From positions 1 through 38,047 of the forward strand of contig CANQHZ010000033.1 in assembly GCA_947623805.1 (NCBI GenBank): a stretch of DNA of 38,047 nucleotides, given 5' to 3'. A program made the translations under genes and the position numbers. Below the pieces are notes generated by a model, which was not told where the DNA came from, ran no database searches, and saw nothing but the letters and a program-made list of their open reading frames with translations. Below are positions 8,522 to 37,900 of this stretch, piece by piece. How positions within the stretch are numbered: the stretch's first letter is position 1; the number at the start of each line of letters is the position of its first letter. The stretch is from an uncultured Lachnospiraceae bacterium (GTDB lineage Bacteria; Bacillota; Clostridia; Lachnospirales; Lachnospiraceae).

Positions 8522-8530
8522 ACAATATAA

Positions 8531-9779: not shown

Positions 9780-9806
9780 TTCTTAGCAGGAATATTCAAA
9801 GATTTT

Positions 9807-11863: not shown

Positions 11864-11932
11864 ACTATATCATTAGATAAGGCAGATGGCAAGCGTTTTG
11901 GAGAAAATATATGCTGAAATGTAAAAATCAAT
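11864..11932 (-). promoter_or_regulatory. Promoter module of the SF2 helicase, shared with Rpn genes
   Basis: Minus strand: TTGCCA (11892-11887), 17-bp spacer, TATAGT (11869-11864), about 120 bp before the start codon. The 46 bp ending at the -35 align without gaps to the same block before Rpn copy 2, with about 38 identical positions. The conserved parts include TTTTTACATTTCA, TATTTTC and AAACGCTTGCCA. Confidence 0.75.
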
Positions 11933-11954
11933 ATATTGAGCCGTGAATAAAAAG

Positions 11955-11983
11955 TTGTCGAATAATAACTGATATGATAATAT
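11955..11983 (+). promoter_or_regulatory. Candidate promoter for the AIM24-family gene
   Basis: TTGTCG (11955-11960), a 17-bp spacer and TAATAT (11978-11983), 54 bp before the ATG. Each box matches consensus at about four of six positions. Confidence 0.4.
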
Positions 11984-12037
11984 ATTCAGGTAAACAATAA
12001 TTTGTATGTATTTTTTATTAAAGAAAGAGGGGGAAAT

Positions 12038-12793
12038 ATGTTTCAGCTTAACAATTTTTTGAACAATCAAAATATGAAGGTAATTGCTCAGAAAGGTCCG
12101 TTTCGTGTATTTGAACATGAAAAAGATTTGAGCGTAACGCCGTCAAATGCTATGGCAGCTTACTATGCGTCACAGATGAATGTCAGGAAACGCCAGTTGT
12201 TTGCGGAGCTTGGCGGCAGCGGCTGTATTACGCAGGCGGGCGCTATGCAGTGGATGCTTGGCAATGTCACAATGGACACAGGCATAAAGGGCGTAGGCAA
12301 TTTCCTGGGTAAGATGGCGAGCGCGGCAGTGACAAAGGAATCCGTAGCAAAGCCTATATACCGCGGCGGTGGAGTGCTTATGCTTGAGCCTACATTTAAG
12401 CATATTCTTCTGATAGACGTATCAGAGTGGGGAACAATTGTGCTTGACGATGGTCTTTTCCTTGCCTGCCAGGATACGCTCACGCAGAAGACGATAGCGC
12501 GCAGCAATCTGTCTTCCGCAGTGCTTGGTAAAGAAGGGCTTTTTAATCTTTCGCTTTCGGGAAAAGGAATAGCAGCGTTGGAGAGTCCCGTGCCTATGGA
12601 AGAACTTATAGAGTTCAACATTGAGAATGATGTCGTAAAGATTGATGGAAATATGGCTATTGCATGGTCAGGCTCTCTTGACTTTACAGTGGAAAAATCA
12701 GGCAAGAGCCTGTTGGGTTCCGCGGTATCGGGTGAAGGTTTTGTAAACGTATACCGCGGCACGGGCAAAATTCTGATGGCACCCACTCTATAA
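12038..12793 (+). CDS. AIM24-family protein
   Basis: 251 aa. The start ATG 12038 follows GAGGGGG; an upstream in-frame ATG at 12002 has no such site. The protein is beta-rich with repeated short glycine-containing strands typical of the AIM24/TIGR00266 fold (GGVLMLEPTFKHILLIDVSEWGTIVLDDGLFLAC, GLFNLSLSGKGIAALESPVP, FVNVYRGTGKILMAP). The related yeast protein is mitochondrial; bacterial members have no settled role. The HEAT-like gene follows about 100 bp later, with the ftsH relic between. Confidence 0.82.
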   Translation: MFQLNNFLNNQNMKVIAQKGPFRVFEHEKDLSVTPSNAMAAYYASQMNVRKRQLFAELGGSGCITQAGAMQWMLGNVTMDTGIKGVGNFLGKMASAAVTKESVAKPIYRGGGVLMLEPTFKHILLIDVSEWGTIVLDDGLFLACQDTLTQKTIARSNLSSAVLGKEGLFNLSLSGKGIAALESPVPMEELIEFNIENDVVKIDGNMAIAWSGSLDFTVEKSGKSLLGSAVSGEGFVNVYRGTGKILMAPTL

Positions 12794-16753: not shown

Positions 16754-19201
16754 ATGGACAACAATCAGTTAAACAATTATGACAACAATTCAAACCGTGG
16801 CAATGGCGGCAACGGTCAGAACAATGGCAATGGCAGCGGCGGCGGGTCAAACGGCGGCAAGGATCCCAAAAAGCAGAGCCTGCTTATTATGCTGATAGCG
16901 GCGCTGCTTTCGCTTCTGTGCATCAGCTATTTTATGCGCGCCGTGACTAACGCCACCAACAGGGTGATAAGCTATAATGAGTTTATCAGTATGGTAGACG
17001 CGGGCGAGGTGGAGTCGGTAACAATCGAATCAAATCAGATAGTTATTGAGCCAAAGACAAAAGAGCCCGAGGAAGGCGTCTTTTACTATTACCAGCCGAC
17101 GATTACCTATACCACGGGCAAGGTTGAGGAGGATGAGACGCTTACAAAGCGCCTTCTTGACGCGGGAGTGGAGGTAAACGGCACCGTGCCTGACGGTTCG
17201 GGCATAATACTGTCGCTTTTGTATTACATTGTTCCCGTGCTGCTTATGTGGGGGCTTTTGAGCCTACTGCTGCGCAAAATGACGGGCGGCGGCGGAGCGT
17301 TCGGCATGGGCAAAAGCACGGCTAAGGTGTATGTGCAGAAGGAAACAGGCATTACTTTTAAGGATGTCGCGGGCGAAGACGAGGCGAAGGAGTCGTTGCA
17401 GGAGGTTGTGGATTTCCTGCATAACCCTGGAAAATACGCCAAAATAGGCGCTAAGCTGCCAAAGGGCGCTCTGCTTGTAGGTCCTCCCGGCACGGGCAAG
17501 ACAATGCTTGCCAAGGCAGTGGCGGGTGAGGCGCATGTGCCGTTTTTCTCGCTTGCAGGCTCTGACTTTATCGAGCTGTATGTCGGCGTGGGCGCGTCGC
17601 GTGTGCGTGATTTGTTTAAAGAGGCGGAAAAAAATGCACCGTGCATTATATTTATAGATGAGATTGACGCTATCGGGCGTAGCCGCGATTCAAAATACGG
17701 CGGCGGCAACGAGGAGCGCGAACAGACGTTAAACCAGCTGCTTTCCGAAATGGACGGTTTTGACGGCAAGAACGGTATTATCATACTAGCGGCGACAAAC
17801 CGCCCTGAAATTCTCGACAAGGCGCTGCTGCGCCCTGGGCGCTTTGACAGGCGTATCATAGTGGATAAGCCGGACTTAAAGGGCAGAGTCAATATTTTAA
17901 AGGTTCACTCAAAAGACGTGCTGATGGACGAGACTGTAGATTTGGACGCTATCGCGCTTGCGACGAGCGGCGCTGTGGGCGCGGACCTTGCGAATATGAT
18001 AAACGAGGCGGCAATCAACGCCGTAAAAGACGGCAGGGATTTTGTGAGCCAGAAGGACTTGTTTAACGCGGTAGAGGTGGTGCTTGTCGGCAAGGAAAAG
18101 AAAGACCGCATTATGAGCAAGGAGGAGCGCAGGATTGTGTCGTACCACGAGGTGGGGCATGCCCTTATAAGCGCGTTGCAGAAAAACTCTGAGCCTGTGC
18201 AGAAAATCACGATTGTGCCGCGCACGATGGGGGCATTGGGTTATGTTATGCATGTGCCCGAAGATGAGAAATACCTCAATACGCAGGCTGAGCTGCACGA
18301 TATGATAGTAGGGCTTCTGGGCGGCCGCGCGGCGGAGGAGATAGTGTTTGACACAGTGACGACAGGCGCGTCAAATGATATCGAGAAGGCGACGAGCATA
18401 GCGCGTTCTATGGTTACGCGATACGGCATGAGCAAGAAATTCGGCCTTATCGGTCTTGAAACGGTTGAGAGCCAGTACCTTGAGGGCAGAAGCGCGCTCA
18501 ATTGCGCGGACAATACGGCTGCGGAGATAGACGCCGAGGTTATGAAGCTTTTGAAGGAGGCGTATGACGAGGCGCTTGCGCTGCTTAAGGATAACCGCGA
18601 CGTGATGGACAAAATCGCCGCGCATCTGATAGAAAAGGAGACAATTACAGGCAAGGAGTTTATGAAGATTTTCCGCGAGGCAAAGGGGCTGCCTGAGCCT
18701 GAGGAAAAGACTGACGAGGCGGAGAAGGCGGATGCGGCAGACAATGCGCAGAGCGGGGAAAACGCAAAGGCGGACGATAAGACGCAGGCAGAGGGAAATG
18801 CTGAGGCAGGCGTTAAAGCGCAGACAGAGGAAAATGCCGAGACGTCAAAAAAGCCAGATGTGACTGATATGCAGCCTAAACCGCAGCCGACGGGAGTTTA
18901 TGTCGGCGGAGCAGGATTTTCAGCAGCTTTAAATAATGCTGAAAATGGTGTTAGCAGCCACATTGACGGAAACAATAGTGAAAGCGATAATGATGGCAGC
19001 GACAATAGCAACAACAGCGGTGACAGTAACAACAGTGGTGACAGTGACAACAGCAATAATAACAATAGTAATGACAGCTCTGATAATGGTGGCATCAATT
19101 ACGGATTTGACAGCGGCAAAGATGTGAGTGGCGGCAAGAAGGAGGAAGGCTCAAAATTTGGCGCAGTCTGGGAGCGGAATATAAACGGGGACAGAAATTA
19201 A
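16754..19201 (+). CDS. ftsH: ATP-dependent zinc metalloprotease FtsH, with unusual low-complexity ends
   Basis: 815 aa against about 640-700 for most homologues. Membrane-anchored AAA+ protease for quality control and regulated proteolysis. Order: an Asn/Gly-rich cytoplasmic N-terminus (about 1-40), TM1 (SLLIMLIAALLSLLCISYFM), an extracytoplasmic domain, TM2 near residues 150-175, Walker A GPPGTGKT (about 243-250), Walker B IIFIDEID, the second region of homology ATNRPEILDKALLRPGRFDR, then the zinc motif HEVGH (465-469). The last 170 residues after FREAKGLPEPEE are acidic, Ala/Glu/Lys-rich, then Ser/Asp/Asn-rich. AAAGGA lies 13 nt before the ATG, a rather long spacing. A deleted relic of this gene is at 12813. 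Confidence 0.97.
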   Translation: MDNNQLNNYDNNSNRGNGGNGQNNGNGSGGGSNGGKDPKKQSLLIMLIAALLSLLCISYFMRAVTNATNRVISYNEFISMVDAGEVESVTIESNQIVIEPKTKEPEEGVFYYYQPTITYTTGKVEEDETLTKRLLDAGVEVNGTVPDGSGIILSLLYYIVPVLLMWGLLSLLLRKMTGGGGAFGMGKSTAKVYVQKETGITFKDVAGEDEAKESLQEVVDFLHNPGKYAKIGAKLPKGALLVGPPGTGKTMLAKAVAGEAHVPFFSLAGSDFIELYVGVGASRVRDLFKEAEKNAPCIIFIDEIDAIGRSRDSKYGGGNEEREQTLNQLLSEMDGFDGKNGIIILAATNRPEILDKALLRPGRFDRRIIVDKPDLKGRVNILKVHSKDVLMDETVDLDAIALATSGAVGADLANMINEAAINAVKDGRDFVSQKDLFNAVEVVLVGKEKKDRIMSKEERRIVSYHEVGHALISALQKNSEPVQKITIVPRTMGALGYVMHVPEDEKYLNTQAELHDMIVGLLGGRAAEEIVFDTVTTGASNDIEKATSIARSMVTRYGMSKKFGLIGLETVESQYLEGRSALNCADNTAAEIDAEVMKLLKEAYDEALALLKDNRDVMDKIAAHLIEKETITGKEFMKIFREAKGLPEPEEKTDEAEKADAADNAQSGENAKADDKTQAEGNAEAGVKAQTEENAETSKKPDVTDMQPKPQPTGVYVGGAGFSAALNNAENGVSSHIDGNNSESDNDGSDNSNNSGDSNNSGDSDNSNNNNSNDSSDNGGINYGFDSGKDVSGGKKEEGSKFGAVWERNINGDRN
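18969..19088 (+). repeat. Ser/Asp/Asn-coding low-complexity tract in ftsH
   Basis: Degenerate short repeats built from AAC/AGC/GAC/GGT codons encode DNSNNSGDSNNSGDSDNSNN and similar. The tract is near the 3' end of ftsH and is likely prone to slippage. Confidence 0.8.
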
Positions 19202-19219
19202 AATTATAAAGCATTGGTT

Positions 19220-19338
19220 ATACACCCCATAAAGACCTTTGAAAAGCGGCGGCGTTCGGCAGGACATTAGCGTTGCTGGTGTCTTTGCGTTAAGCGAAGT
19301 CGGTTTGCGCTTGATTTTCAGGTTTAAGTGGGGTGTAT
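19220..19338. repeat. Inverted repeat spanning the ftsH-uvrC gap
   Basis: ATACACCCCA (19220-19229) is exactly complementary to TGGGGTGTAT (19329-19338), with weaker pairing continuing inward. A smaller hairpin AAGCG/CGCTT lies inside. It could fold the uvrC leader or end ftsH transcripts, but there is no T run typical of a terminator. Confidence 0.5.
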
Positions 19339-19375
19339 GATTATTTCAAGCAGGTGTGCAGTTATGAGGTAAAAT

Positions 19376-21253
19376 ATGTCTGAGGAAAAGGAATTTGACA
19401 TAAAGGAGGAGCTTGCCAAGCTTCCAAAAAAGCCAGGAGTATATATTATGCGCGACGCGGACGATGACATTCTCTACGTGGGAAAGGCAAAAATCCTCCA
19501 CAACCGTGTCCGCTCCTATTTCAAGGAAAATATCGGCAGGGGACCGCAGATTGACAAAATGGTGTCGCTTATCGCGCGTTTTGAGTACATAGTGACAGAC
19601 TCGGAGCTTGAGGCGCTTGTGCTTGAAAACAACCTTATAAAAGAGTACAGCCCCAAGTACAACACTCTGCTTAAGGATGACAAAACATATCCTTATATAA
19701 AGGTCACTCTAGGCGAGGACTATCCGCGCATTATGCTTGTGCGCAAAATGAAAAAGGATAAGGCAAGGTACTTCGGGCCTTTTACGAGCGGCGGGGTAAA
19801 GGAAACGATAGACCTTATAAACAAGCTCTATCTAATCAGGACATGCCGCCGCAATCTGCCGAAGGATTTCGGAAAGGAGCGCCCGTGTCTTAATTATCAC
19901 ATCAACCAGTGCTGCGCGCCGTGCCAGGGGAATATTTCCAAGGAAGATTACGCGCATAGGATAGAGCAGGCGATAGATTTCCTGAATGGAAAGCATCAGC
20001 CAATCGTCAAGGAATTAAAGGAAAAAATGCAGAAGGCTTCCGAAAATATGGATTTTGAGGAGGCGATAAAATACCGCGATTTGATTGAGAGCATCAGGAA
20101 AATCAGCGAAACGCAGAAGATGTCCGACAACGCGGGCGAGGACAAGGACATTATCGCGCTTGCGATAGACGGCAATGAGACAGTGGTTCAGGTGTTTTTC
20201 CTGAGAAACGGCAGGCTTATCGGCAGGGAGCATTTTTATATGACACAGGTGGAGGAGCCGTCGGCGGGCGGCATACTTACAAGCTTTGTCAAGCAGTTTT
20301 ACGCGGGTACGCCGTTTATACCGCGTGAGATTATGCTGCAGGAACCGATAGAGGACATGGAGCTTGTGGAGCAGTGGCTTACTGACAAAAAGGGCGGCAG
20401 GGTGCATTTGAGAGTGCCGCAAAAAGGCGATAAGGAAAAGCTTGTCGATCTGGCGGCAAAAAACGCGCAGCTTGTATTGAGCCAGGACAGGGAGCGCATA
20501 CGCCGCGAGGAGGGCAGGACAATCGGCGCGGTGAAGGAGATAGAGGATATTCTCGGCATAAGCCCGCTTACGCGCATGGAGGCGTTTGACATTTCCAATA
20601 CGAGCGGATTTGCAAATGTCGGCTCTATGGTGGTGTATGAAAAGGGTAAGCCAAAGCGCAGCGATTACAGGAAATTCCGCATGAAGACTGTGGCGGGACC
20701 TGATGATTACGCCTGCATGCGGGAGGTGCTTACGAGGCGTTTTACGCATGGGCTTGATGAGAGGAAAGAGGCTGACGAGCGTTTTGGCAGCTTTACGCGT
20801 TTCCCCGATTTGCTTTTGATGGACGGCGGGCGCGGTCAGGTAAATGTCGCTTTACAGGTGCTTGATGAGCTTGGGATTGATATTCCCGTGTGCGGCATGG
20901 TGAAGGACGACAAACACAATACAAGGGGGCTTTATTTTAACAACAGGGAGCTGCCAATCGACAAGCACAGCGAGGGTTTCAAGCTTATCACGCGTATTCA
21001 GGACGAGGCGCACAGGTTTGCAATCACTTATCACAGGTCGCTTAGGAGCAAGGCGCAGATCCATTCGGTGCTTGACGAGATTAGTGGCGTAGGCCCCAGC
21101 AGGAGAAAGGCGCTGATGAGGCATTTTAAGTCGATTGAGGAATTGAAGGCGGCTGATGTCGGTGAGCTTTCGGCGGTTGAAGGGATTAGTGAGAGAGTGG
21201 CGAAGGAGATTTATGCGTTTTTTCATGATGGTGATGAACGGAGGGAGGGCTGA
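19376..21253 (+). CDS. uvrC: UvrABC excinuclease subunit C
   Basis: 625 aa. Makes both incisions during nucleotide excision repair with UvrB. The GIY-YIG nuclease is N-terminal ([25 protein letters not shown], residues 20-100). Next is a cysteine cluster ([13 protein letters not shown]), the UvrB-binding UVR motif (residues 200-235, [16 protein letters not shown]), the RNase H-like second nuclease ([32 protein letters not shown]) and two C-terminal helix-hairpin-helix motifs ([32 protein letters not shown]). GAGG precedes the ATG. The next gene starts 2 nt after its stop. Confidence 0.98.
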
Positions 21254-26100: not shown

Positions 26101-26292
26101 ATGCAAACAGAAAAGTGGCTTTCAATGAAAGATATATGTAAACATCTTGGTGTGAGTAGAGATACAGTCATCAAATGGGTGAACGAAAAAGGTATGCCGG
26201 GGACACATATTGGTCGGCTGTGGAAATTTGATTCGGATGAAGTTGATGAATGGATGAAAGCCTACAGACAAAAACAACGCGAGGAGAAATAA
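26101..26292 (+). CDS. Excisionase/MerR-like helix-turn-helix DNA-binding protein
   Basis: 63 aa. The whole protein is one winged-helix HTH_17 domain: WLSMKDICKHLGVSRDTVIKWVNEKGMPGTHIGRLWKFDSDEVDEWMKAYRQKQ. AAAGGA lies before the ATG. The PAPS-reductase-like relic starts 2 nt after its stop, so they form one operon. Domains of this type serve as phage/transposon excisionases and also as small regulators at the head of defence operons; position favours the latter. Confidence 0.88.
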   Translation: MQTEKWLSMKDICKHLGVSRDTVIKWVNEKGMPGTHIGRLWKFDSDEVDEWMKAYRQKQREEK

Positions 26293-26294
26293 CT

Positions 26295-27055
26295 ATGTTT
26301 AAAATAAAGTGGGATTTTGACAATAACGGAATCATATTGTCAGAATACATAGAAGAAAATGATTCGTTGAACTCTCCAAGACCGGTGTATATTGACGAAT
26401 TTGATATGTTGGGACTGAGAGATTCTTTTGAAATACCCTCTTAAAATGTTCCGATATGTTGGGAAACAGACCGCAAGTATTTTTATAAAGGAGAGGTTAT
26501 AGCGGAAACACAAAGGGGCAATATTTATGAAGACCCTAAAGTCATTGTTCATGAGGAGCATAAGGGTCGAAAACTTAATCCTATAGATGTGGATTTGGTA
26601 GTGGCAAAAAATAACAAGATGTTATCTGTTGCTGAAGATGAAGCAATGGATTTTATAAAAGAAAAGTATGAATACTATCAAAATAAAGTATCGGGATTTG
26701 TTGTTGCTTTTAGTGGAGGAAAAGATTCACAGGTCATATTGGATTTGGTTAGCAGGGTGATTCCGCATGAGAAATTCACATCTGTCTTCACAAATACGGG
26801 TATGGGACTACCTTGTACAATCGAAATGATGAAAACAACTGAGGCATCAGTTAAAGGGTAAGGCATACAAAAAAGAGTATTTTAATATAAGAAATTATCC
26901 CGCAGTGAGGGAATAAATATATACTCAATTTATACAATCAATGAAGAAACGAAGCACATAGAGGTATTTACTGATTGGGCGGAATATATTGTAAAAAATA
27001 GAAAACGTCTTGTGGAGTGGATAGATAACAAAATTGTTGCGTTTGTCTGGAGGTA
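26295..27055 (+). pseudogene. PAPS-reductase/DndC-SspD-like gene, broken
   Basis: Starts MFKIKWDFDNNGIILSEYIEE after GAGGAG. An in-frame TAA at 26442-26444 interrupts it, and the same frame then continues with NVPICWETDRKYFYKGEVIAETQRGNIYEDP to SFSGG-type ATP-pyrophosphatase motif FSGGKDSQVILDLVSRV (SGGKDS at 26712-26729). It ends at a stop near 26861. A further fragment in another frame, FTDWAEYIVKNRKRLVEWIDNKIVAFVWR, ends at 27055 over the ribosome binding site of the next gene. The SGGKDS domain is that of phosphoadenosine-phosphosulfate reductases, used by DndC/SspD in DNA phosphorothioation. Full homologues are larger, so internal sequence has been lost. Confidence 0.75.
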
Positions 27056-27064
27056 GGATGAGTT

Positions 27065-28170
27065 ATGATATATATAGATAATGCAGCTACTACAGAATTG
27101 GACGAAGATGCATTTGAATTGATGAAAAAATTTTTAAGATATGATTATGGAAATGCATCCCAGCCATATGAGTTTGGGCAGAAAATCAATATGGCAATAG
27201 CAGAAGCCAGGAAAACAATTGCAATGTGTATTGGTGCAGATCCAGAGGAGATATATTTTACATCTTGTGGAACAGAAAGTGATAACTGGGCTATTAAAAT
27301 GGGGTCACGGGGAGTAGAACAGGTCATTACCACCGTTATAGAGCACCATGCAGTCCTGATTCATGTAAAGCTGTAGAGGCAATGGGAAAGATTGTGAAAT
27401 ATCTTTCAGTCAACGATAAGGGAGAGGTACAGCCAAGTGACCTTAACGAGATGTTAGTGGATAAACGTTCGTTAATTTCTGTGATGTATGCTAATAATGA
27501 GATAGGGACTTTAGAACCTATTAAAGACCTTGCTCGTATAGCCCATAATCACGGAGCACTTTTTCATACGGATGCAGTTCAAGCAGTTGGACATGTTCCT
27601 ATTAATGTTCATGAATTGGGTGTTGATATGTTGTCTGCATCTGGACATAAATTTAACGCACCTAAAGGGATAGGTTTTTTGTATATAAAAAAAGGGGTGA
27701 ACATAAAACCTTTAATTGATGGCGGCTCACAGGAAAACAGATACAGAGCGGGAACTGAGAATGTTGCTTCAATAGTAGCTATGGCTTGTGTATTGAAGAA
27801 TAATTATAACAGTATGGCTGAGAATATAAAGCATTTAAATATGTTGGAAAACACAGTTATAATGAGATTAAAAAGTAGTGGGTTAGATTTCATTCGTAAT
27901 GGAAGTACTAATCATATACCCGGAAACATTAATATTTCATTTGCTGGAGCAGATGGAGAGATGATTTTGCATCGGATGGATTTAAAAAAAATTTGTATAT
28001 CTACGGGTTCTGCATGTGATAGTGTGAATACTCAGATTTCTCATGTAATTAAGGTGATAGCTGTTCCGGAAGAATATGCAGAAGGCACTGTTAGAATTTC
28101 TTTCGGAAAAAATAATACAGAATCTGAAGCAGAGGAAGTTGCAGATGCTTTAATAGATATTCTGAAGTAA
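27065..28170 (+). pseudogene. Cysteine desulfurase (DndA/IscS-like), single-base frameshift
   Basis: N-terminal part 27065-27376 (MIYIDNAATTELDEDAFELM.., TSCGTESDNWAIKMG, VIEHHAVLI) and C-terminal part 27382-28170 read as one enzyme if one base is restored between 27358 and 27359: the expected HHAVLHSCKAVEAMGK then appears. The PLP lysine motif ASGHKFNAPKGIGF and the active cysteine in STGSACDS (codon 28015-28017) are intact. The repaired length is about 368 aa. This PLP enzyme supplies persulfide sulfur. Beside the SGGKDS gene it suggests a phosphorothioation-type pair rather than housekeeping Fe-S synthesis. GGAGGT precedes the ATG. Sequencing error is possible, but the decayed neighbour favours real loss. 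Confidence 0.85.
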
Positions 28171-28463: not shown

Positions 28464-31400
28464 ATGACTGAAAGAAATATAATCATTTATATTCAAGATT
28501 TGGACATTTCTAATAGAAGCAAAAATGCATTGCTGCGAATGAAGATTATGACCCTCAATGAGCTTGAAAAAAGGGATAGTGAGGACATTTGCGCTGCCAC
28601 GGGTATAGGTGATGACAGTATACAGGAACTTCTGGATGTTCTTGAACATATAGATGAGATTTTCGCCAGATTTGAGTCAAAAAAGCAAAGAATAGATGAA
28701 ATATTTGATGATATAAAGGATTTTGATGTTGATGATATACCATTCTCTAACAGGGCTTTAAATTCTCTGAAGCGGACAAATATCTTCAAAGTTGGCGATA
28801 TGATTCGTATGTCTCAGAAAGATATTATGGAGCTGCGTAACGTGGGTGTCTTGACGCGGGCTGATATTACTGCAGCAATTAATGCAATCATTGCAGAGGG
28901 TAGCGACTACTTTTTACATCCTCATTTGATTGTAAATGCAGATAGTGGTACAGAAGATTTGGCTTCTAACGAAGAACGAGATATGCGTATTGCAATGGTG
29001 ACCGAAGAAGTTGGAAATATTTTGATAGACGAACTTAACTTTAGCACACGCGCATTTCGATGCCTGAAAAATGCGCATATTTTAACTGTCGGTGAGCTTA
29101 TTTGCATGACAGAAAAAAATCTCACAGAAATCCGTAATATTGGAAATTTAACTAGGAATGAGATTCTGTCTATTATCGAAAGTATTATTTCTCAGGGGAG
29201 TTCCTACTTTGATTCGCATAGAATAGAAAAGGTAGATGAACCTGTTGCTATAGTAGGACCGAAAGAAAAAGGATTTGACTTTCCTGTTATTGATATTCTT
29301 TTTGAAAAATTTTTCTTCAAACCGATTTGCATGACAGAGTGGTTTGGACTGTCCCGACAGGGCATCTATAATGCATTGGATAAGAGGTCACCGAAGCGCC
29401 GAGAAAGCTGGACCGGAAAAGAACTTTCTGAACAAGAATATGAGATTCTGAAACAACTGGTCCAAAACAAAAAATTTGATTATAGTGATGACCAAACAAC
29501 TTGCTGCTGCATGAATAACAGGCAGGATGATTTAGCTTGTTTTTTTATATACGAAGATGAGATTAAATGCTTTTTTCTAAAGGATCTTCCAGAGAAACTG
29601 CGAAACGAGATAGTAGTCTCGAATTATCATAGATATACAGAGCGGGAACTATCAGGTGAGGCAGAAGGCAGAATTGTGCATGTTATTACAAAGCCATTTT
29701 TCCTGCCGACTTATCCTGATAAATTCAGGGCGAATGCGCAGATTCGCGGTATGAGTTCAGATGAGTATTCAGTTTTTATTTCTGGGTACCCCGTTGTAGA
29801 TCAGAGAAGTGTAACGGATGATCAGATTACAGCTTTCTTCGACGAGAACCTGGTTGATGGCAAAGTCTACATATCTTCTGATTCAAAAAACCAATGGATT
29901 AGGTCCCTGGCATCCAGAAATGGATATACCATTAAGGATTTTATAGAGCTATTTGGTTATGAGTCAAAACTTGGCGGAACAGAACTCACAACTGATGGAG
30001 CAAGAGAACGACATATAGAAGAACTGAGGCAGCATATTGTGCATGATAACGTGGTGTATATTCCTACCGATTCAAGAATCTATCGATTGCTGCAGACTTA
30101 CACATACAACAAAGGCATTACGATGAATGAATATTTAAGAGATCTTGGATTTGTACGAACTGCTGAGAGACCGGATATGGCGGTAGATATCTTGGAAAAA
30201 GACATGAAAGTGCGCCAGGGGGAAGGAAAGTTTGAGGACAAGGTATTTGCACAGTACCCTTTGATTGGCAGCAAAATCCTTAAACCAGAAATGCTTGATA
30301 AGCTGAATAAATATTCTAGACAATATATTGATACTGTTTTGAGAGAACCATGGGCAAAGCTGTCTCTGCGTGCGGAAATGCAGATAACGTTGGCTTTAAT
30401 CAATAATGCCAAGAACTGGAAAAATGAAGAGAACAGTAATTTTTGGAATTATATCGTTCTTCAATTTGGATACCGTGATGCAAGTGGTTCTGTAGTGCGC
30501 ATTCTGCAGTCATCCCTTGAAAGTGCAATGAAGACGAATCAACGTCTCTTTATAGAGGATGCTAACGGTCGTGCATTTAAGTCCACAGTAGTTATTCACG
30601 CCCTTACAACCCGGAAATCGTGGATGGCACTGTTTGATTTTCTGTTCGATTTTTATAAAAACAATCTGAATTGGAAAATAATTCCGGGGGATTCTTTGAT
30701 TGTAGTTATGATTAGGTCTCTCCAGCAAAAATTGGCTGGAGGTGGTAGCGAAGATACAGAATTGACGATCAGCTCAAGAGTATATTCTTTTCAGGAAGGT
30801 ATTCGTAAACTGGTTCTGTTTAGACCTGTGTTTACCAGAGACCTGTTTGAGAAACTTATATCTAAGATTGCTTCTATGGTCAATTCTGAAAACAGACCGG
30901 TAAAGACCTATGAGGAACAGCTTTGCGAAGAATGGTTTAAGGAAAAGATTACGGCAATCGCTAATACAAAGCGTACGGAGCGTCAAAACCAGGGTGGACA
31001 AAAGGATGTCGCGATTGATTACTCCCGTATTCGTGCAAAGTACATTTTGAAGAATGAAACAGATATTCAGCTCGTTTTGCCAGATATTCGTTTGAAGAGC
31101 GGAGAAATCAACAGGGCCGTTATAACTGTTTATTATAATGGTTCCATTGCCTGCCAACAAAATATGAGCTGGTATGGAAATGAGCTGGGTAAAACTTTGA
31201 ATGGAGTATCATTATCTTTGCCGGCGATTCCTATTAATACTGAGGCAATAGAAATTCAGGTTATAATAACCTGCGACAATGAAGAAATCTATAATTCCAA
31301 GGATACACTTAATCGCAGGACTTGGATTTTTTATGGCGGCGATGAATGTAATACCAGCCAGATAAAAAAAGATAATTATACACTTGTCATATCAAGAGCA

Positions 31401-33047
31401 TCTGTACTGGAAACCGAGAATGCTGAGATTACAAAAATTGACGGATTTAAGAATTTAGGATTGCAGGCATTTTTTCTGGAGTTGAAAGACGGCTATGTTA
31501 TAACAGTTGATGGTAGACTATTTGCTTTTGATAGTGAAAATGGAACAGATATACGTGTGATTGCGCCTTCAGAATCTTTGGCGTTTCCTCATTTAGAAGC
31601 AAACGGACAGGAATACTATTTCGCGTATCATAATAGTGTTTGCAGTATTATTCTGGGTAACTTGGATTATCTTCAACAGTTTGTAATTCTTCGTGATGGA
31701 GAACGGGTAGAATTTTCGTCGCTTCCGTCATCGAATAATGGGTTGGCTTTTACATTTTCTCTGTCGTGTGATAAAGACACTTGCAGACTTCAGGTTATTG
31801 ACCTATCAAATGAACGTTTAATGTTTGATAAGAGCTTTATTCTTATCAAGCAAGCATCATGCAGCTTCGACAAAGAATTCTACTATTCTGTTTCTGATTA
31901 TCAGAATGCCGAGTATCGGATTAACATTGACGATTTTTCAGAAAGTGTGTCATTCGATGCAGATGTCGGAGAAGTTATGATTCCATATAGAAATGGAGAG
32001 CTGCATGTTGCTATTCCAAAGATTGAGGTTCGTGAAACCAGTGGGATATGGATGAATGGTTCCGCACCAGCATGGTATATAGGAGATATTCCACAGACCA
32101 GTCTGCTGAAAGTTTCAGCGCCGCCGAAAGTAGATGTGAAGTTTCTTGTCGGCGGAAAAGATATTATGTATGACGGCCATGGATTGGTTACGCTTGGTAA
32201 TGTCCTTCAATCTTTCTGTGATACCGAAAGTTTCTCTCTTGTAGATGTGCAGATGAAAGTTAGTGGTGTCAAGCAGAACAATGTATATCTGTTAGCCAGG
32301 GTTTGCTACAAAGAGAGATTCCTTGGTCGGCCGGAGTTCTGGACAGAAGCCAATAAGCTTTTCTGGAATCAGGGTGGCGCTTTTATTGGTAAACCTGAAC
32401 GGACATTTACTCTATCGTTGTATGGAGAGGCTGATACTCCGATTGAATTTAAACTGGATGAAAACACAGAGTTTGTTGAGATTCCGGAAGATATGCCAAT
32501 TGGAAATTATCGTTATGAGATTAGCATTATCTCTGGCAGTTTGTTTAAAAAGATGAAAGAAGTTATAGCAGAGGGTGATTGTGTTGTTGGCAATCGGAAT
32601 TTGCTTCGTTTTAAAAATCGCAGAATCGTAGTTGATTCGATTACAGATGAGTTTAATGAAAGTGCCGGACACATACCAATTAAAGCCTGTTATATTGACA
32701 GGATAGAATTCCAAGGGATGGAGGATACCTCTGAAGGATATTGCCCGGTTTACAGTGGTGTGATGTACACCAAAGGATATCACGGGGAGAGATACGAATT
32801 TTCATTTGATAGTTATACCAACAAACAGGGTGTGACTAAAATGATGGTCAATCCGGTTCGAATTGTTTATATTGGCGATATTGCTCTTTGTATAACAGAT
32901 TCAGATGGTGACGGACTTTATTATTACCATTACGATGATAAATATAAAAATACAGTCTATGCGCTGACAGATCACGAGTATACAAAGCAGAACAAGCATA
33001 CTTACGCTAATGCGGATCTGTACTTGTATAGGACGGAAAGGATATAA
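28464..33047 (+). CDS. 1527-aa protein with three RpoA-CTD-like helix-hairpin-helix repeats
   Basis: Residues 8-62, 89-145 and 187-243 are three copies of a fold like the RNA polymerase alpha C-terminal domain: LxISxRxxNxLxxxxIxTxxxL..TxxxLxxxxxIG..S/TxxEIxxxI. Next is an HTH-like segment (WFGLSRQGIYNALDKRSPKRRES, 293-315). An internal duplication follows (VYISSDS..FIELFGYE at 468-500; VYIPTDS..YLRDLGFV at 531-564), then a helical middle and a long beta-rich C-terminal half (about 830-1520). No nuclease, ATPase or membrane motif was found. Its stop is 2 nt from the start of the helicase gene, so the two are almost surely co-expressed. I infer a DNA-reading scaffold or targeting subunit. Family not recognised. 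Confidence 0.85.
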   Translation: MTERNIIIYIQDLDISNRSKNALLRMKIMTLNELEKRDSEDICAATGIGDDSIQELLDVLEHIDEIFARFESKKQRIDEIFDDIKDFDVDDIPFSNRALNSLKRTNIFKVGDMIRMSQKDIMELRNVGVLTRADITAAINAIIAEGSDYFLHPHLIVNADSGTEDLASNEERDMRIAMVTEEVGNILIDELNFSTRAFRCLKNAHILTVGELICMTEKNLTEIRNIGNLTRNEILSIIESIISQGSSYFDSHRIEKVDEPVAIVGPKEKGFDFPVIDILFEKFFFKPICMTEWFGLSRQGIYNALDKRSPKRRESWTGKELSEQEYEILKQLVQNKKFDYSDDQTTCCCMNNRQDDLACFFIYEDEIKCFFLKDLPEKLRNEIVVSNYHRYTERELSGEAEGRIVHVITKPFFLPTYPDKFRANAQIRGMSSDEYSVFISGYPVVDQRSVTDDQITAFFDENLVDGKVYISSDSKNQWIRSLASRNGYTIKDFIELFGYESKLGGTELTTDGARERHIEELRQHIVHDNVVYIPTDSRIYRLLQTYTYNKGITMNEYLRDLGFVRTAERPDMAVDILEKDMKVRQGEGKFEDKVFAQYPLIGSKILKPEMLDKLNKYSRQYIDTVLREPWAKLSLRAEMQITLALINNAKNWKNEENSNFWNYIVLQFGYRDASGSVVRILQSSLESAMKTNQRLFIEDANGRAFKSTVVIHALTTRKSWMALFDFLFDFYKNNLNWKIIPGDSLIVVMIRSLQQKLAGGGSEDTELTISSRVYSFQEGIRKLVLFRPVFTRDLFEKLISKIASMVNSENRPVKTYEEQLCEEWFKEKITAIANTKRTERQNQGGQKDVAIDYSRIRAKYILKNETDIQLVLPDIRLKSGEINRAVITVYYNGSIACQQNMSWYGNELGKTLNGVSLSLPAIPINTEAIEIQVIITCDNEEIYNSKDTLNRRTWIFYGGDECNTSQIKKDNYTLVISRASVLETENAEITKIDGFKNLGLQAFFLELKDGYVITVDGRLFAFDSENGTDIRVIAPSESLAFPHLEANGQEYYFAYHNSVCSIILGNLDYLQQFVILRDGERVEFSSLPSSNNGLAFTFSLSCDKDTCRLQVIDLSNERLMFDKSFILIKQASCSFDKEFYYSVSDYQNAEYRINIDDFSESVSFDADVGEVMIPYRNGELHVAIPKIEVRETSGIWMNGSAPAWYIGDIPQTSLLKVSAPPKVDVKFLVGGKDIMYDGHGLVTLGNVLQSFCDTESFSLVDVQMKVSGVKQNNVYLLARVCYKERFLGRPEFWTEANKLFWNQGGAFIGKPERTFTLSLYGEADTPIEFKLDENTEFVEIPEDMPIGNYRYEISIISGSLFKKMKEVIAEGDCVVGNRNLLRFKNRRIVVDSITDEFNESAGHIPIKACYIDRIEFQGMEDTSEGYCPVYSGVMYTKGYHGERYEFSFDSYTNKQGVTKMMVNPVRIVYIGDIALCITDSDGDGLYYYHYDDKYKNTVYALTDHEYTKQNKHTYANADLYLYRTERI

Positions 33048-33049
33048 GT

Positions 33050-36000
33050 ATGTTCAGTCCAATTTCGGCGGCTAAAAACATAAAAGATGAATTTATTGGA
33101 TACATATCCACATTGTTTCATATCTCTGATAAGGATTATGCGACACAGTTTGTATCTGCATTGCGGGCAGAAGGCGTGGTATCAAAAGGACCATACCTTG
33201 ACGTAAGCGATTCTTATAAAACTGGCAAGAGTTTGGCACAAATGATTGAGGAGGGAGAGGCTTCGCCTCTTTTCAAAACACTGGAAGGTGATATCCCTGA
33301 CGGAGAAAAGGAAATTCAGATTAACAGAGGACTTTATCTACATCAGGAAAGAGCACTTAGAAAAACAAATCAAGGCAAGAATCTGATTGTTACCACGGGT
33401 ACCGGTTCTGGTAAGACAGAATGTTTCATCATTCCTATTATCAATCATTTGCTTAGGGAAGCAGAAGAAGGCACATTAACATCCGGAGTTCGCGCAATTT
33501 TGATTTATCCTATGAACGCTTTGGCAAATGATCAGATGAAAAGACTTCGTAATCTGCTGAAGAGTTATCCGAATATTACCTTTGGTGTCTATAACAGCAG
33601 CACCAAACAGAATGAGCAGGACGGTATTGCAGAATATGGAAAGGTATATAAGGATGCAAATGGCTATCCGCTCAAGCCTATCAAAAATGAGATTATTTCC
33701 CGTGATCAGATGCAGAAAACTCCACCACATATTCTTGTAACAAATTATGCCATGCTGGAGTATATGATGCTCCGGCCGAAAGATGATCTTGTCTTCTCTT
33801 GTGCTAAATTACGCTACCTGGTTCTTGATGAAGCTCATATTTATCGTGGTGCAACTGGAATGGAAACATCCTTGCTTTTGAAGCGTCTAAAGGCTAGAAT
33901 CAGTAATCCAGCAAATGTGCTACACATCCTTACTAGCGCAACGCTTGGAGGAAAAGAAGCTGACGATGATATCGTTAAATTTGCTGATACACTTTGTGAT
34001 ACGAGCTTTCAGGCGGAAGATATTATTCGTTCACAGAGTGTAGTTCCCTCTTATGATAAACCATCAGAGGATATTCCACTTTCTATGTTTGCGGATCTTG
34101 TTGACCCCAAGAAACCGCTGAATGCAATTGCAGAAGATTATGGAATGACCATTCTAGAAGGGCAGCCGGATGCAGAGTTCCTGTATGATCTTTGTGTAAG
34201 TGCATCTGTATATCGTCAACTGCGTAGTATTACCCGTCGACCGATGACTATTCCGGAAATTACCAGAGCACTAAGAATAACGCATGACGTTACGGAGCAG
34301 GACATTGTAAATATTATCAGTGTGGCGACACAGGCCACTAAGAGCAAGTCTGACCTTATTAAGGCACGTTATCATATGTTTGTCAAGGCACTCGAGGGTG
34401 CATATATTACGCTTGGACAGCACAAAAAGTTGATGCTGAACCGCAATCACAGTACAGTGATTAATGGTGAAGAATGGAAAGTGTTTGAATGTGCTGTTTG
34501 TGATGATTGCGGGCGTATTGCCGTAGCCGGCCGCGAAATTGATGGTAAACTGGAGTTTGCAAATGATTCTTATGATCCGGATATCGAATACTATATGCTT
34601 CGCGACAGCCATGATACTGACCTGGATGATGAGGAAGATGATAACTTTGAAATTGGGAAAAATGATTACTTGCTGTGCTCCAAGTGTGGTGCTCTAATAC
34701 ACGAGAGCTTGAAATCAGATCCTCCATGTACATGCGGTTTTAGTCGTTACGTCAGAATTCGAAAGGCAAAGAAAAGCGGAGCCCGCGGTGATGGAAAATG
34801 CCCGAGCTGCAACTTTGGAAATTTCAAGACATTTTATCTTGGTTACGATGCTGCAACAGCAGTACTTGGAACGTCCCTATTTGAGGAACTGCCGGAGAGT
34901 GAGAAGATTCTGAAGAGTAAGCGTACGGAACCTGGAACCAAGAGAAGTCTTTTTGGCTCTTCAAAACGGTCGGCACAGGTAGATATTATAAAAAGAAAGC
35001 GGCAGTTTCTGGCTTTTTCGGATAGCCGTGGTGAGGCAGCATTCTTTGCCTCTTATATGACAGCTTCTTATAGTGAATTTCTTCGCCGTCGTGGAATCTG
35101 GCATGTTGTTGATAAGAACCGTGATAATATGGCTGTGCATCCATGGGAGATTCAGCATTTTGTTGATGAACTGACTGCTTATTTCGATTCCTGCAGGACA
35201 TTTGCAGAGCCTGGTGATAAGGGAACAGAAAACCTTACGGCTATCAGTAGAAAGAATGCCTGGATTGCGGTACTTAATGAGATGGTTAACGCTCGTCGAA
35301 GTACTAGTCTTGTGTCTATGGGTATTATTAAGTTCAACTATAAGGGCAATAGCGAAGAAGCGATGATTGGTGTGGCAGAGAACTATAATCAAAATGTTCA
35401 GGATGTTAAGGCACTCTTTGATTTGCTGGCAATGGATATTGTCTATCATGGTGCCATCGAGGGTGACTGTGAATTGACTGATGCTGATCGAGAGTATATT
35501 TTCTATACAGCAAAAGCGAAACGTGTAAAGCGCTGTAAAGATCTGGATAAAGACAAGAAGAAAGCCTATCTTGCCGGCTGGTCATCAACTGTCAGAAAGA
35601 ATGGGAATCTGCTTAAAAACGGACGCCTGAAAAGAGTAATGAAAGTTCTCGCTCTGGACGAGACATCAGCCAATGAACTTTTGCAGATTTATTGGGATGA
35701 GGTCCTCAGAGGAGATGAACCGCTTTCTACTGCGGGCAATGATGAATTTTATTTTAATACAGAGCGATTTACAATCGGTGCCGGGACAAAAGATGTGCCA
35801 ATCTATGTATGTGATGTTTGCGGCAAGACCAGTATGATAAATTGCAAGGGTATGTGTACAACTCTGAAATGCGGAGGACATCTGAGACAGGTTACACATA
35901 CAAGCTTGCTGGAAGACAATCACTATGCGAAGCTCTATCAGTCAAGGTTAATGCAGCCACTGCATATTAAGGAGCATACGGCTCAGCTTGGCCGTGAAGA

Positions 36001-37900
36001 GCAGCAGAAGTATCAAGAGAGGTTTGTAAATAAAGAGATTAATGCCCTGAGCTGTTCTACAACGTTTGAAATGGGTGTTGATGTTGGTGATTTGGAAACG
36101 GTTTATTTGCGTAATATGCCGCCTTCCCCAGCAAACTATGTACAGAGAGCCGGTCGTGCAGGACGTGGAAAGAACGCCGCGGCATTTTCGTTGACGTATT
36201 CAAAATTGAGTTCGCACGATTTTACCTACTACAAAAATCCGGAGAATATGATTACCGGAAAAATTGGAGTTCCATTGTTCACTGTAAGGAATGAGAAAGT
36301 TATTCTTCGTCATATATTTGCGGTTGCGCTAAGCGATTTCTTTGCAAAGCAGGTGGATGTTTATCATTCCAATAACGCTGATGTGCTCCTGAATGGAGAT
36401 GGATGGGAGCGACTTTGCGCTTATCTACAAAGTAAACCTGAGCACTTGAAAGAAATCTTGAAAGCATCCATTCCGGAAAGTATGCATTCTATTATGGGAA
36501 TCACTGATTATTCCTGGATTGATAAGCTGATTGGGGATGACGGAGTACTGAGGGTTGCAGTGGATGAATTTCGACAAACAGTGCAGTACTATATTGACGA
36601 ATACAACAGGCTTCTTGCAGATGGACTCACTCAAGAGGCCGCTGCAATCGAAAAGAAGTTATGGTCATATCGGCGCAGTAAAGATGATAACCGTGGACGC
36701 AATGAATTAATTGAGTTTCTGGTAAGAAACAATGTTTTGCCGAAGTACGGCTTCCCGGTTGATACGGTAGAGCTTTATCAAAACGCTAACTCAGCAACAG
36801 ATAGGAGATTACAGATGGTACGTGATTTGCAGCTTGCTATTTCGGAGTATGCTCCGGATGCGCAGGTTGTTGCAGATGGGAAGCTGTACACAAGTAGATA
36901 TATTCGTAAACTTCCACAAACTACAGGGCAGGATTGGGAGACTGCTTACATTGCCCGATGTGATAATCTTTCCTGTCTGACTTGGAATCATAGATCCATG
37001 GAACTGGATTCTTTTGGAGAAGAATGTGTTTCCTGCCATGAGATTATTCCAAGATTTAGGTGGAAGCAAGCTATTGAACCGCGTAAAGGTTTTGTGGCAG
37101 ATGCAAAGCCTAAGGATGTTCCAATGCGTAAGCCGGACAAGGCGTATCGAAGTGATGATTTTTATATTGGTGATGCTCAGCGACAGATTATGCAGAAGTA
37201 TGCCTTTGTAATGAACGACGGTAATCGCTTCCAAATGGAAACTTCCGTCAATGATTCTCTGATGGTGGTCTGCAATGATGATTTCTATGTTTGCCCTCAT
37301 TGTGGTTATGCAGAGAGTGCGACGGAAAATATGGAGGCTGCAAACTTTAATTCTCATCAGTGCACGCTGGAAAGGATACATATTACACCCTGGGGAAAGA
37401 AGTGCGAGGTTAAACTTGTTAAGAACAAGCTTTGCCATGTCTTTAAGACAGATGTTGTTCGTCTGGTATTTGCCACGCCTCAGGCTGGAAGTCAAGATGT
37501 AATGCTGTCTGTTATGTATGCGTTATTGGAAGCTTTATCCGCTGTTCTAGATATCGAACGTAATGATATCAAGGGCTGCTTACACAAAATCGTTTATGAT
37601 AACAGACTGATTTATTCAATTGTTCTTTATGATGCGGTGGCAGGTGGCGCTGGCCATGTGAGAAGACTGGTGACAGAAGACGGAATCAAGTTCCGCCAGG
37701 TAGTTGATAAGGCAATCGCTATCACAAAAGGATGCAATTGCTCACCGTCTTGCTATAGTTGCCTGAGAAATTATTATAACCAGAAGATTCATGATAAGCT
37801 GAATAGAAAGTATGCTTATGACTTTTTGGAGAATTATGTAGGTGAGATTGAACCAATAACCAACGAAGAGTTCGAGAAAGGTACCGCTACAGTTTTTTGA
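33050..37900 (+). CDS. 1616-aa DEAH helicase with zinc ribbons and DUF1998-type C-terminus (DrmA/DrmB-, MrfA-like)
   Basis: Walker A TGTGSGKTE (116-124), motif Ib region ILVTNYAMLEYMM, DEAH (260-263), SAT (296-298). The RecA-2 half is late, with FEMGVDVGDLETVYL (about 1003) and QRAGRAGRG (about 1031-1039), as in YprA/MrfA/Hrq1 helicases. Between and after them are several cysteine pairs: CAVCDDCG, CSKCGALI..CTCGF, CPSCNFG, CDVCGKTS..CTTLKCGG, CDNLSCL..CVSCHE, CPHCGY. The C-terminus has DAVAGGAGHVRRL and CNCSPSCYSCLRNYYNQ, the zinc-site signature of DUF1998, the DrmB domain of DISARM. AAAGGA precedes the ATG. It is likely the motor of a defence or repair complex with the 1527-aa partner. The role is inferred. 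Confidence 0.92.
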   Translation: MFSPISAAKNIKDEFIGYISTLFHISDKDYATQFVSALRAEGVVSKGPYLDVSDSYKTGKSLAQMIEEGEASPLFKTLEGDIPDGEKEIQINRGLYLHQERALRKTNQGKNLIVTTGTGSGKTECFIIPIINHLLREAEEGTLTSGVRAILIYPMNALANDQMKRLRNLLKSYPNITFGVYNSSTKQNEQDGIAEYGKVYKDANGYPLKPIKNEIISRDQMQKTPPHILVTNYAMLEYMMLRPKDDLVFSCAKLRYLVLDEAHIYRGATGMETSLLLKRLKARISNPANVLHILTSATLGGKEADDDIVKFADTLCDTSFQAEDIIRSQSVVPSYDKPSEDIPLSMFADLVDPKKPLNAIAEDYGMTILEGQPDAEFLYDLCVSASVYRQLRSITRRPMTIPEITRALRITHDVTEQDIVNIISVATQATKSKSDLIKARYHMFVKALEGAYITLGQHKKLMLNRNHSTVINGEEWKVFECAVCDDCGRIAVAGREIDGKLEFANDSYDPDIEYYMLRDSHDTDLDDEEDDNFEIGKNDYLLCSKCGALIHESLKSDPPCTCGFSRYVRIRKAKKSGARGDGKCPSCNFGNFKTFYLGYDAATAVLGTSLFEELPESEKILKSKRTEPGTKRSLFGSSKRSAQVDIIKRKRQFLAFSDSRGEAAFFASYMTASYSEFLRRRGIWHVVDKNRDNMAVHPWEIQHFVDELTAYFDSCRTFAEPGDKGTENLTAISRKNAWIAVLNEMVNARRSTSLVSMGIIKFNYKGNSEEAMIGVAENYNQNVQDVKALFDLLAMDIVYHGAIEGDCELTDADREYIFYTAKAKRVKRCKDLDKDKKKAYLAGWSSTVRKNGNLLKNGRLKRVMKVLALDETSANELLQIYWDEVLRGDEPLSTAGNDEFYFNTERFTIGAGTKDVPIYVCDVCGKTSMINCKGMCTTLKCGGHLRQVTHTSLLEDNHYAKLYQSRLMQPLHIKEHTAQLGREEQQKYQERFVNKEINALSCSTTFEMGVDVGDLETVYLRNMPPSPANYVQRAGRAGRGKNAAAFSLTYSKLSSHDFTYYKNPENMITGKIGVPLFTVRNEKVILRHIFAVALSDFFAKQVDVYHSNNADVLLNGDGWERLCAYLQSKPEHLKEILKASIPESMHSIMGITDYSWIDKLIGDDGVLRVAVDEFRQTVQYYIDEYNRLLADGLTQEAAAIEKKLWSYRRSKDDNRGRNELIEFLVRNNVLPKYGFPVDTVELYQNANSATDRRLQMVRDLQLAISEYAPDAQVVADGKLYTSRYIRKLPQTTGQDWETAYIARCDNLSCLTWNHRSMELDSFGEECVSCHEIIPRFRWKQAIEPRKGFVADAKPKDVPMRKPDKAYRSDDFYIGDAQRQIMQKYAFVMNDGNRFQMETSVNDSLMVVCNDDFYVCPHCGYAESATENMEAANFNSHQCTLERIHITPWGKKCEVKLVKNKLCHVFKTDVVRLVFATPQAGSQDVMLSVMYALLEALSAVLDIERNDIKGCLHKIVYDNRLIYSIVLYDAVAGGAGHVRRLVTEDGIKFRQVVDKAIAITKGCNCSPSCYSCLRNYYNQKIHDKLNRKYAYDFLENYVGEIEPITNEEFEKGTATVF

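Follow-up and report, generated by a model that had tools for sequence, protein, structure and literature searches.

Contig CANQHZ010000033.1 of the uncultured Lachnospiraceae bacterium assembly GCA_947623805.1, analyzed over its entire length of 38,047 bases (hereafter the window; G000:C33), carries near its end two adjacent genes in the same direction: A, encoding a large partner protein with RpoA C-terminal-domain-like (alpha-CTD-like) copies, a middle (M) module and a C-module, and B, encoding a DruE-like helicase of the YprA family (superfamily 2, SF2) with no recognized nuclease domain. With moderate confidence, we read A and B as a two-gene anti-phage system that targets DNA and belongs with the YprA-helicase systems Druantia and DISARM, its partner protein combining a head with an adaptor. 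The motor is Druantia-like, and the partner family appears undescribed in the literature found. Both frames are intact, and their lengths exceed chance expectation; an earlier sequence-only reading of the window had given 1527 and 1616 codons separated by 2 nt, and the coordinates, the ATG starts and the 2 nt between the stop of A and the ATG of B agree with it. The same reading had described A as a triple RpoA-CTD-like protein and B as a DUF1998 DEAH helicase, and Pfam bears out both descriptions, with three RNA_pol_A_CTD stretches in A (1.7e-35) and DEAD, Helicase_C and MZB domains in B (Table 1). MZB (MrfA Zn-binding) is equated here with DUF1998. The proposal of a defense system is in keeping with the DruE-family helicase, the conserved pair and the defense genes near some relatives, the function itself being predicted from sequence.

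Conservation and distribution of the gene pair

Both A and B have homologues arranged in the same order, which are designated below by locus (L) and genome (G) numbers. Searches with full-length A caught housekeeping RpoA (190 of 200 family genomes matched) and, among the matches listed, extended beyond the alpha-CTD region only in L003, L004 and the window; because housekeeping RpoA was pulled in, later searches used residues 247-1527 or the C-module. Species genomes were searched for the C-module with one peptide pattern, which does not amount to a census, and 20 loci were confirmed from 71 pattern matches. A DruE-like gene lies directly downstream on the same strand in 16 of these 20; the remaining four are L076, which has DrmA-DrmB instead, L077, where the gene ends early and the rest of the locus holds no DruE, L079, at a contig edge with no partner visible, and L081, at a contig start with no DruE in the following 6 kb. 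In the reverse direction, B matched 13 of 392 genomes of the order, the source genome included, and a C-module gene stands directly upstream of the helicase in all 10 of those whose upstream DNA is readable (G309, G466 and G439, where contig ends cut the upstream DNA, are excluded from this count). The pairing of A homologues with the helicase, on which the sequence-only reading had staked its interpretation, is thus borne out in both directions.

The core of A matched 7 of 392 genomes of the order, and a profile search of the phylum matched 4 of 398 genomes, namely the source and three others, all three with a C-module and a DruE-like helicase. The core of A had no match in 50,697 phage records; in viral contigs, query A1 gave 69 stretches fitting the pattern and 0 confirmed, and the helicase alignment query gave 12 distant relatives (24-36% identity). 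What stays constant beside helicases of the B clade is the C-module; the N-terminal domains vary, and the system is rare and patchy. Named loci come mainly from Lachnospiraceae and other Clostridia; beyond these, an uncultured Chloroflexi assembly contributes two copies and a Synergistaceae assembly a fragment. A pair with a NERD gene is also present in a cultured strain, Anaerotignum lactatifermentans DSM 14214 (L071). The Chloroflexi assembly (RUG11948) holds two differing copies of the pair on separate contigs (L074, 5220-14805; L075, 3764-15103), one with a NERD gene and one without.

More distant partners were linked to the C-module by profile comparison (hhalign): a profile of four fits it over 840 columns, almost its entire length, with 99.2% probability and L101 reaches 99.4%, with reversed decoys at 0.1-0.2%. 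Single-sequence BLAST is weak for some of these partners; for the G202 partner, single-protein BLAST to the C-module was silent at 1e-3, and the relationship emerges only via the group profile. The partner in L117, one of the three additional loci of the phylum search, is a weak, partial match (211 of 956 profile positions, 8e-11; BLAST 4e-9) and does not figure in the local profile search list. The alignment used for the C-module fold does not contain L070, L077 and L079, rows dropped because they were near-duplicates or fragments or to save run time.

Classification of helicase B

Forty-nine PADLOC families matched B, and the best 25 of these are led by seven DruE models (4e-169 to 1.5e-113), followed by SngC (2e-25), DpdJ (6e-24), BrxH (2e-22) and DrmA (4.5e-17); B thus carries the DruE assignment common to all Druantia types. 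The closest solved structure by sequence is 9tu7, a 2108-aa 'DEAD/DEAH box helicase' (6e-72), followed by the 1970-aa helicase 9wae (1e-42) and by YprA 6znp (751 aa, 1e-17); 9tu7 is taken to be E. coli DruE because the neighboring entry of the series, 9tud, is named DruH. Eight clade members (alignment A7) share without variation the Walker A, DEAH, SAT and QRAGRAGR motifs and three of the four MZB cysteines. E. coli DruE is reported to carry PLD domains (PMC12458937, PMC13192584), which B lacks, since it ends 38 residues past its last zinc motif.

A tree built from 23 helicases groups B with 11 relatives in a single clade (bootstrap 100, SH-aLRT 100), and the other 11 rows comprise three Druantia I, four Druantia III, two ARMADA and two cyanobacterial helicases. 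The four Druantia III rows form a separate clade (100/100), and B falls outside the three Druantia I rows. The tree has long branches and its deeper order is not trustworthy; it kept 12 clade rows, most others having been left out as near-duplicates, fragments or for run time, and a first helicase tree was built without L067 and L070.

The sequence-only reading had noted that DUF1998 helicases occur in DISARM and as MrfA-like repair enzymes; B is of a defense family (DruE) and is closer to DruE than to DISARM or YprA/MrfA. With DISARM it shares a YprA-family helicase and a DUF1998-type module, and two C-module relatives lie beside DrmA-DrmB; B differs in joining helicase and MZB in one protein and in its far stronger match to DruE than to DrmA, so that the pair does not comprise a DrmA with a separate DrmB; L042/L076 have both. 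ARMADA I and II likewise have a YprA-family helicase of the same broad defense branch (PMC12458937), but the gene before B is A rather than one for a BrxHII-like helicase or a PglX-like methylase, and both ARMADA rows lie outside the B clade.

The pair could instead serve DNA repair or genome maintenance, as a helicase whose cofactor binds DNA, comparable to MrfAB, given that the MrfA repair branch belongs to the MZB helicases and that DNA binding is a general property of alpha-CTDs and of an HNH-associated module. The repair branch consists of a short YprA helicase alone or with MrfB exonuclease (PMC12458937), compared with 1616 aa for B; 9tu7 far outranks YprA among the structures, the DruE match is strong, the distribution is very patchy by all three genome counts, and defense genes lie near some relatives. 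We consider a repair role very improbable.

Architecture of partner A and its variable heads

Two of A's three alpha-CTD copies fit true alpha-CTD (RpoA) structures with an rmsd of 1.0-1.4 Å, and the residues by which an alpha-CTD contacts DNA are kept only in part in the window copies. The adjoining M module also occurs fused to HNH nucleases, and the sole matches to A in plasmid records are to this module, in two records annotated as HNH endonucleases. Its fold gave no match of its own, alpha-CTD matches having filled the structure lists; its C-terminal repeats may resemble homing-endonuclease-associated repeats. In L048 (46-4640, minus strand), the M module is fused to an HNH_2 nuclease and adjoins a likely DNA methyltransferase and a MutH/Sau3AI-type-like protein (the last two recognized by eye), an arrangement that suggests that the module is a DNA-target reader. 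The C-module (about 955 aa) was modeled by AlphaFold2 as a helical part followed by tandem Ig/FN3-like sandwiches. On this model, the features that look like DNA reading are confined to the N-terminal third of A, the remainder being mostly a predicted helical and Ig/FN3-like scaffold.

The alpha-CTDs might alternatively bind host transcription factors rather than DNA, with A sensing phage take-over of host transcription. In solved structures alpha-CTD contacts regulators as well as DNA (Spx and CAP complexes), and the partial retention of DNA-contact residues would suit such a role; the neighboring M module, common to HNH nucleases, fits DNA reading better, and we regard the transcription-factor alternative as rather improbable.

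Heads differ even between close relatives. L062, the closest relative by helicase (91% identical; C-module 80-81%), has just 39 residues before the C-module, with no alpha-CTD found and a separate preceding ORF with Sel1 repeats; L078, L080, L101 and L116 have little or nothing ahead of the C-module, a Pfam scan of L078, L080 and L101 giving no alpha-CTD. The partners of these five loci are C-module scaffolds with neither alpha-CTDs nor a middle module. L104-L106 carry a different N-terminal extension of about 150 residues, with no alpha-CTD by Pfam, L115 has one alpha-CTD-like stretch and an acidic linker (by eye) with no M module match, and L075 and L076 give weak alpha-CTD matches (E 0.004-0.26).

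Comparison of the window with L063, L064, L065, L066 and L069 gave identities of 62-68% for A and 82-87% for B. Within A, identity is 76-82% in the helical part of the C-module, 57-73% in the first Ig stretch, 67-78% in the second, 66-71% in the M module and 22-46% in the first 265 residues, the last value being lowered by copy-number changes. A evolves faster than B, and DruH likewise changes faster than DruE (PMC13192584).

Several points weigh against the reading of A as a DNA-guided partner in a system distinct from those already named. The most serious doubt comes from relatives that do without a head: because several partners have neither alpha-CTDs nor the M module, DNA reading is not the common function of the partner, and the sequence-only proposal that A reads DNA holds at most for the N-terminal third of proteins that retain it. 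By analogy with what has been proposed for DruH, sensing may reside in the Ig-like region, the head merely adding DNA affinity. In addition, a joint clade of B's rows with Druantia III was not rejected (p-AU 0.149), and the sister relation is not settled by the tree.

Comparison with Druantia III and published helicase branches

Druantia III, an experimentally shown anti-phage system (PMC13192584, PMC13316683), resembles A and B in being a two-gene operon in which a very large, faster-evolving partner precedes the YprA-family DruE. DruH contains Ig-like domains (PMC13192584), Ig/FN3-like ones being predicted in the C-module, and the Druantia III pair of M. smegmatis (DruE of 1667 aa) has no canonical nuclease domain (PMC13316683), like B. 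On the side of difference, A has alpha-CTDs and an HNH-associated module, and B has no PLD-like region and belongs to a different clade, its 12 rows standing on their own (100/100) rather than within the type III clade.

A and B could therefore still be an ordinary Druantia III (or III-B/III-like) system whose DruH has diverged past recognition and acquired an N-terminal DNA-binding extension. The layout is the same (a partner of about 1000-1500 aa, then DruE), the helical and Ig-like make-up resembles the description of DruH (PMC13192584), the Type III-like helicase branch is most often without a nuclease, like B (Bell et al., PMC12458937), and the joint clade is not rejected. We nevertheless think it unlikely: PADLOC DruH models gave no match to A to E 0.1, none to five A homologues (to E 10) and none to five distant partners (to E 1, filters dropping most above 0.1), whereas two true DruH proteins run as controls match 10 and 11 DruH models; hhalign comparison of A, the C-module and the distant partners with seven DruH proteins stayed at decoy level; and the helicase clade is separate from the Druantia III rows. 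A accordingly shows no relation to DruH in any sequence test run (PADLOC models and profile-profile comparison); the DruH structure 9tud, which is in the PDB sequence set, is not among the best 50 Foldseek/VIA matches listed for the C-module, which excludes nothing.

For the other Druantia types, DruA-D, DruF/DruM/DruG and DruF/DruL had no PADLOC match among A, B and the desulfurase piece, the three window proteins scanned with PADLOC (seven were scanned with Pfam). The Type III-B/III-like branch of Bell et al. resembles B in its DruE-like helicase, most frequently without a nuclease (PMC12458937); the accessible main text of that paper mentions no RpoA, RNA polymerase, DruH or Bacillota and names no A-like partner. 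Compared by description only, the A-B system may overlap this published branch. An alpha-CTD or A-like partner is not described in the accessible text of PMC12458937, PMC13192584, PMC13316683 or PMC8565338, and no paper joining Druantia with alpha-CTD was found in a search that was thin on subscription papers and supplements. The sequence-only reading had not recognized the partner, and the exact pair was not found as a named system in the literature searched. The Druantia III set of PMC13192584 required PADLOC matches to both DruE and DruH, and since A has no DruH match, that survey would miss the A-B family. The pair adds a lineage, mostly from Clostridia, that PADLOC DruH models miss and that surveys requiring a DruH match omit.

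C-modules beside DrmA-DrmB

Two loci place a C-module next to a different motor. In Pseudobutyrivibrio (L042, the same as L076), an A-like protein made up of a weak alpha-CTD, an M module and a C-module is encoded after DrmA (2.2e-138), DrmB (1.6e-44) and a NERD helicase, with no DruE (PADLOC). L136 (genome G942; 7699-12435, minus strand) encodes a 1578-aa protein joining a C-module to a UvrD-like helicase (assigned by eye and weak BLAST); its C-module is 28% identical to that of L042/L076, and the next genes are DrmA-like (26%, 3e-55) and DrmB-like (21%, 2e-6) when compared with those of L042, then NERD-like. Both DrmAB-linked C-modules nest inside the DruE-partnered ones in a quick tree (SH-aLRT 96-99, no bootstrap; L066, L067 and L070 left out). 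These sequence relationships suggest at least one switch of YprA-type motor by the C-module.

A might accordingly be a helicase-agnostic adaptor or effector common to several YprA-family systems, with an exchangeable helicase, and a family of its own rather than a component of a Druantia type. The nested position of two divergent DrmAB-linked loci and the occurrence of NERD helicases with both motor kinds speak for this; the loci are two only, their branches are fairly long (1.4-1.5) in a tree without bootstrap, and DrmA-like genes also occur with no C-module nearby (DrmA-DrmB-NERD in L137; DrmA-like loci L138 and L139). We hold this reading to be possible but doubtful. A wider proposal, put forward tentatively, is that proteins with a C-module make up a sensor class not described before, in which one conserved helical/Ig-like adaptor fits different YprA-family motors (DruE-like or DrmA-DrmB) and takes exchangeable heads. 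These heads would be repeated alpha-CTDs, a DNA reader of the HNH-associated type, a fused UvrD-like helicase or other N-termini, and a nuclease-helicase would join through a docking tail of the motor. It rests on the two DrmAB-linked loci; if true, Druantia-like and DISARM-like defense share a common exchangeable recognition subunit.

NERD nuclease-helicases and the helicase tail

Among the additional partners for which the sequence-only reading had left room, a nuclease-helicase was recovered in part of the family: of 25 clade loci with a full-length helicase, 7 have a gene for a NERD-type UvrD-like helicase immediately behind it, and none is visible in the 147 bases after B. NERD genes were called by similarity to the L047 protein (25-100% identical), which itself matches PF08378 (4e-14) and PADLOC RTasNERD-Hel (C3a187; 5e-79), the L115 protein matching the latter at 1e-64; the PADLOC scan covered two of the seven DruE-clade NERD proteins and the DrmAB-linked one. 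In all seven loci with an adjacent NERD gene the helicase tail extends 146-219 residues past the last zinc motif, compared with 19-40 residues in 16 of 18 loci lacking the gene, the other two having a long tail (L072 and L074). The association gives a Fisher p of 7.5e-5, uncorrected for ancestry and with the window counted as lacking NERD although its downstream DNA ends at the contig end. Within one clade, L104 and L106 have both tail and NERD gene and L103 and L105 have neither. We infer from this correlation that the long tail may recruit the NERD nuclease. As the tail of B is short (38 residues), a NERD gene is not expected beyond the contig end.

On Leisingera plasmid locus L087 (4970-16010), DruA, a short opposite-strand gene and a DruE-like helicase are followed directly by a NERD-domain gene; NERD proteins may thus also join Druantia I-like loci.

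Proposed mode of action

What directs YprA-family defense helicases (DISARM, Druantia, ARMADA) to their target DNA is still to be established, and only recently was DruH proposed to be a protein sensor (PMC13192584). A partner whose conserved adaptor bears recognizable heads for DNA binding, and which accompanies two different YprA-type motors, makes a directly testable case of target choice. The scheme that we propose for the favored anti-phage reading was built by computation on family assignments, on the conserved pairing with its varying heads, on the link between tail and nuclease and on the two loci where another helicase stands in, and it presumes physical docking, DNA binding by A and phage as the target. 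As the motor, the DruE-like SF2 helicase B would load on DNA that is foreign or replicating and unwind it. The C-module would dock to B and control it, its Ig-like adaptor holding B off until engaged, and the head of A (three alpha-CTDs and the M module) would bind DNA and help to set where and when the motor acts, perhaps on AT-rich or structured DNA or on a modification read by the M module. Because heads are lost, gained or replaced between relatives, the trigger probably differs among systems. Once engaged, B would load on exposed DNA and unwind it; purified E. coli DruE unwinds 3'-tailed substrates (PMC13192584). Some relatives would add a NERD nuclease-helicase in trans, apparently via the C-terminal tail of the helicase. 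For the window pair, with a short tail and no NERD gene in view, damage might come from unwinding itself, from a cryptic nuclease in A or B, or from host nucleases. Dimeric DruH cut DNA and the monomer did so weakly (PMC13192584), and the M. smegmatis pair protects with no canonical nuclease domain in either protein (PMC13316683).

The pair in its contig

The contig stops 147 bases past B (at 38047), so nothing 3' of B is readable in the source genome and a third gene is possibly out of view. The sequence-only reading had set the pair in an AT-rich accessory region; G+C is 36-44% over the pair and 41-53% over 9-25 kb, but equally AT-rich parts (32-45%) occur within the first 9 kb, so the contrast is not unique to the pair. 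Directly upstream (26101-28170), a small HTH-like ORF (by eye) is followed by a piece with a PAPS reductase domain and a split cysteine desulfurase, confirming the broken sulfur-transfer genes reported beside the pair; the larger desulfurase ORF matches DndA/SspA models in PADLOC (9e-84/1e-82). These look like remnants of a DndA-like sulfur-transfer cassette, and of a system separate from A and B, to which nothing ties them. A search for tRNA found none in the window.

Table 1. Coordinates of the gene pair, its domains and the adjoining broken genes in the window
Feature	Position	Strand	Basis
A, partner protein, 1527 aa (alpha-CTD x3, middle module, C-module)	28464..33047	+	ORF with ATG start, Pfam, homologues
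Alpha-CTD-like copy 1 of A, residues 8-62	28485..28649	+	RpoA-CTD profile i-E 9.8e-6; Pfam stretch; no structure match of its own among matches listed
Alpha-CTD-like copy 2 of A, about residues 84-145	28713..28898	+	
Alpha-CTD-like copy 3 of A, about residues 181-240	29004..29183	+	
Middle (M) module of A, residues 266-572	29259..30179	+	tblastn to two plasmid HNH proteins; HNH_2 in L048; alignment A6
C-module of A, helical part, residues 573-842	30180..30989	+	AlphaFold2 model (mean pLDDT 77.7, pTM 0.42); alignment A4
C-module of A, tandem Ig/FN3-like beta-sandwich region, residues 857-1527	31032..33044	+	
B, DruE-like YprA-family SF2 helicase, 1616 aa, no recognized nuclease domain	33050..37900	+	ORF with ATG start, Pfam, PADLOC, motifs
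DEAD/DEAH helicase domain of B, residues 98-305	33341..33964	+	PF00270 3.5e-26
Helicase_C domain of B, residues 967-1040	35948..36169	+	PF00271 3.9e-13
MZB (DUF1998-type) zinc-binding domain of B, residues 1489-1572	37514..37765	+	PF09369 3.8e-12
PAPS_reductase piece (broken)	26445-26858		PAPS_reductase 1.5e-6
Cysteine desulfurase split over two ORFs (broken), NifS/DndA kind	27065-27376 + 27382-28170		Aminotran_5 in both

Defense-gene neighbors and other loci

Neighbors of related pairs were scanned as ten proteins from eight loci, picked by eye as likely defense genes, which gives no measure of enrichment. A GmrSD-type protein adjoins L104, a type IV DUF3427 enzyme adjoins L105, Vsr adjoins L115 and an HKD-Snf2 helicase adjoins L047, with DrmA at L076; the neighbor genes of L063 and L068 gave weaker matches, to candidate families only. 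At L117 (205-14992), the pair is flanked by type I restriction R and S subunits and a class II pAgo. Next to the L063 pair (17849-20074) lies a protein with LRR and BRCT domains whose C-terminus matches the candidate defense family PDC-S48 (1.6e-10); in the L104 partner, the N-terminus gives a weak match to this model (1.1e-4).

On Nocardioides plasmid pNOCA01 (L140, 1-19831), an ARMADA I-like trio and genes annotated as DISARM share a stretch of 20 kb. The plasmid helicases of L140 and L141 were considered as Druantia III-B and rejected on gene content, which is that of ARMADA I beside DISARM in L140 and of an ordinary Druantia III in L141. On cyanobacterial plasmids (L051, 4161-14357; L085, 4364-14240), a DruE-like helicase lies behind proteins of about 900 and about 307 aa; three of the four partner proteins were scanned and matched no PADLOC model at 1e-5, and these loci are a possible further unclassified Druantia-like type.

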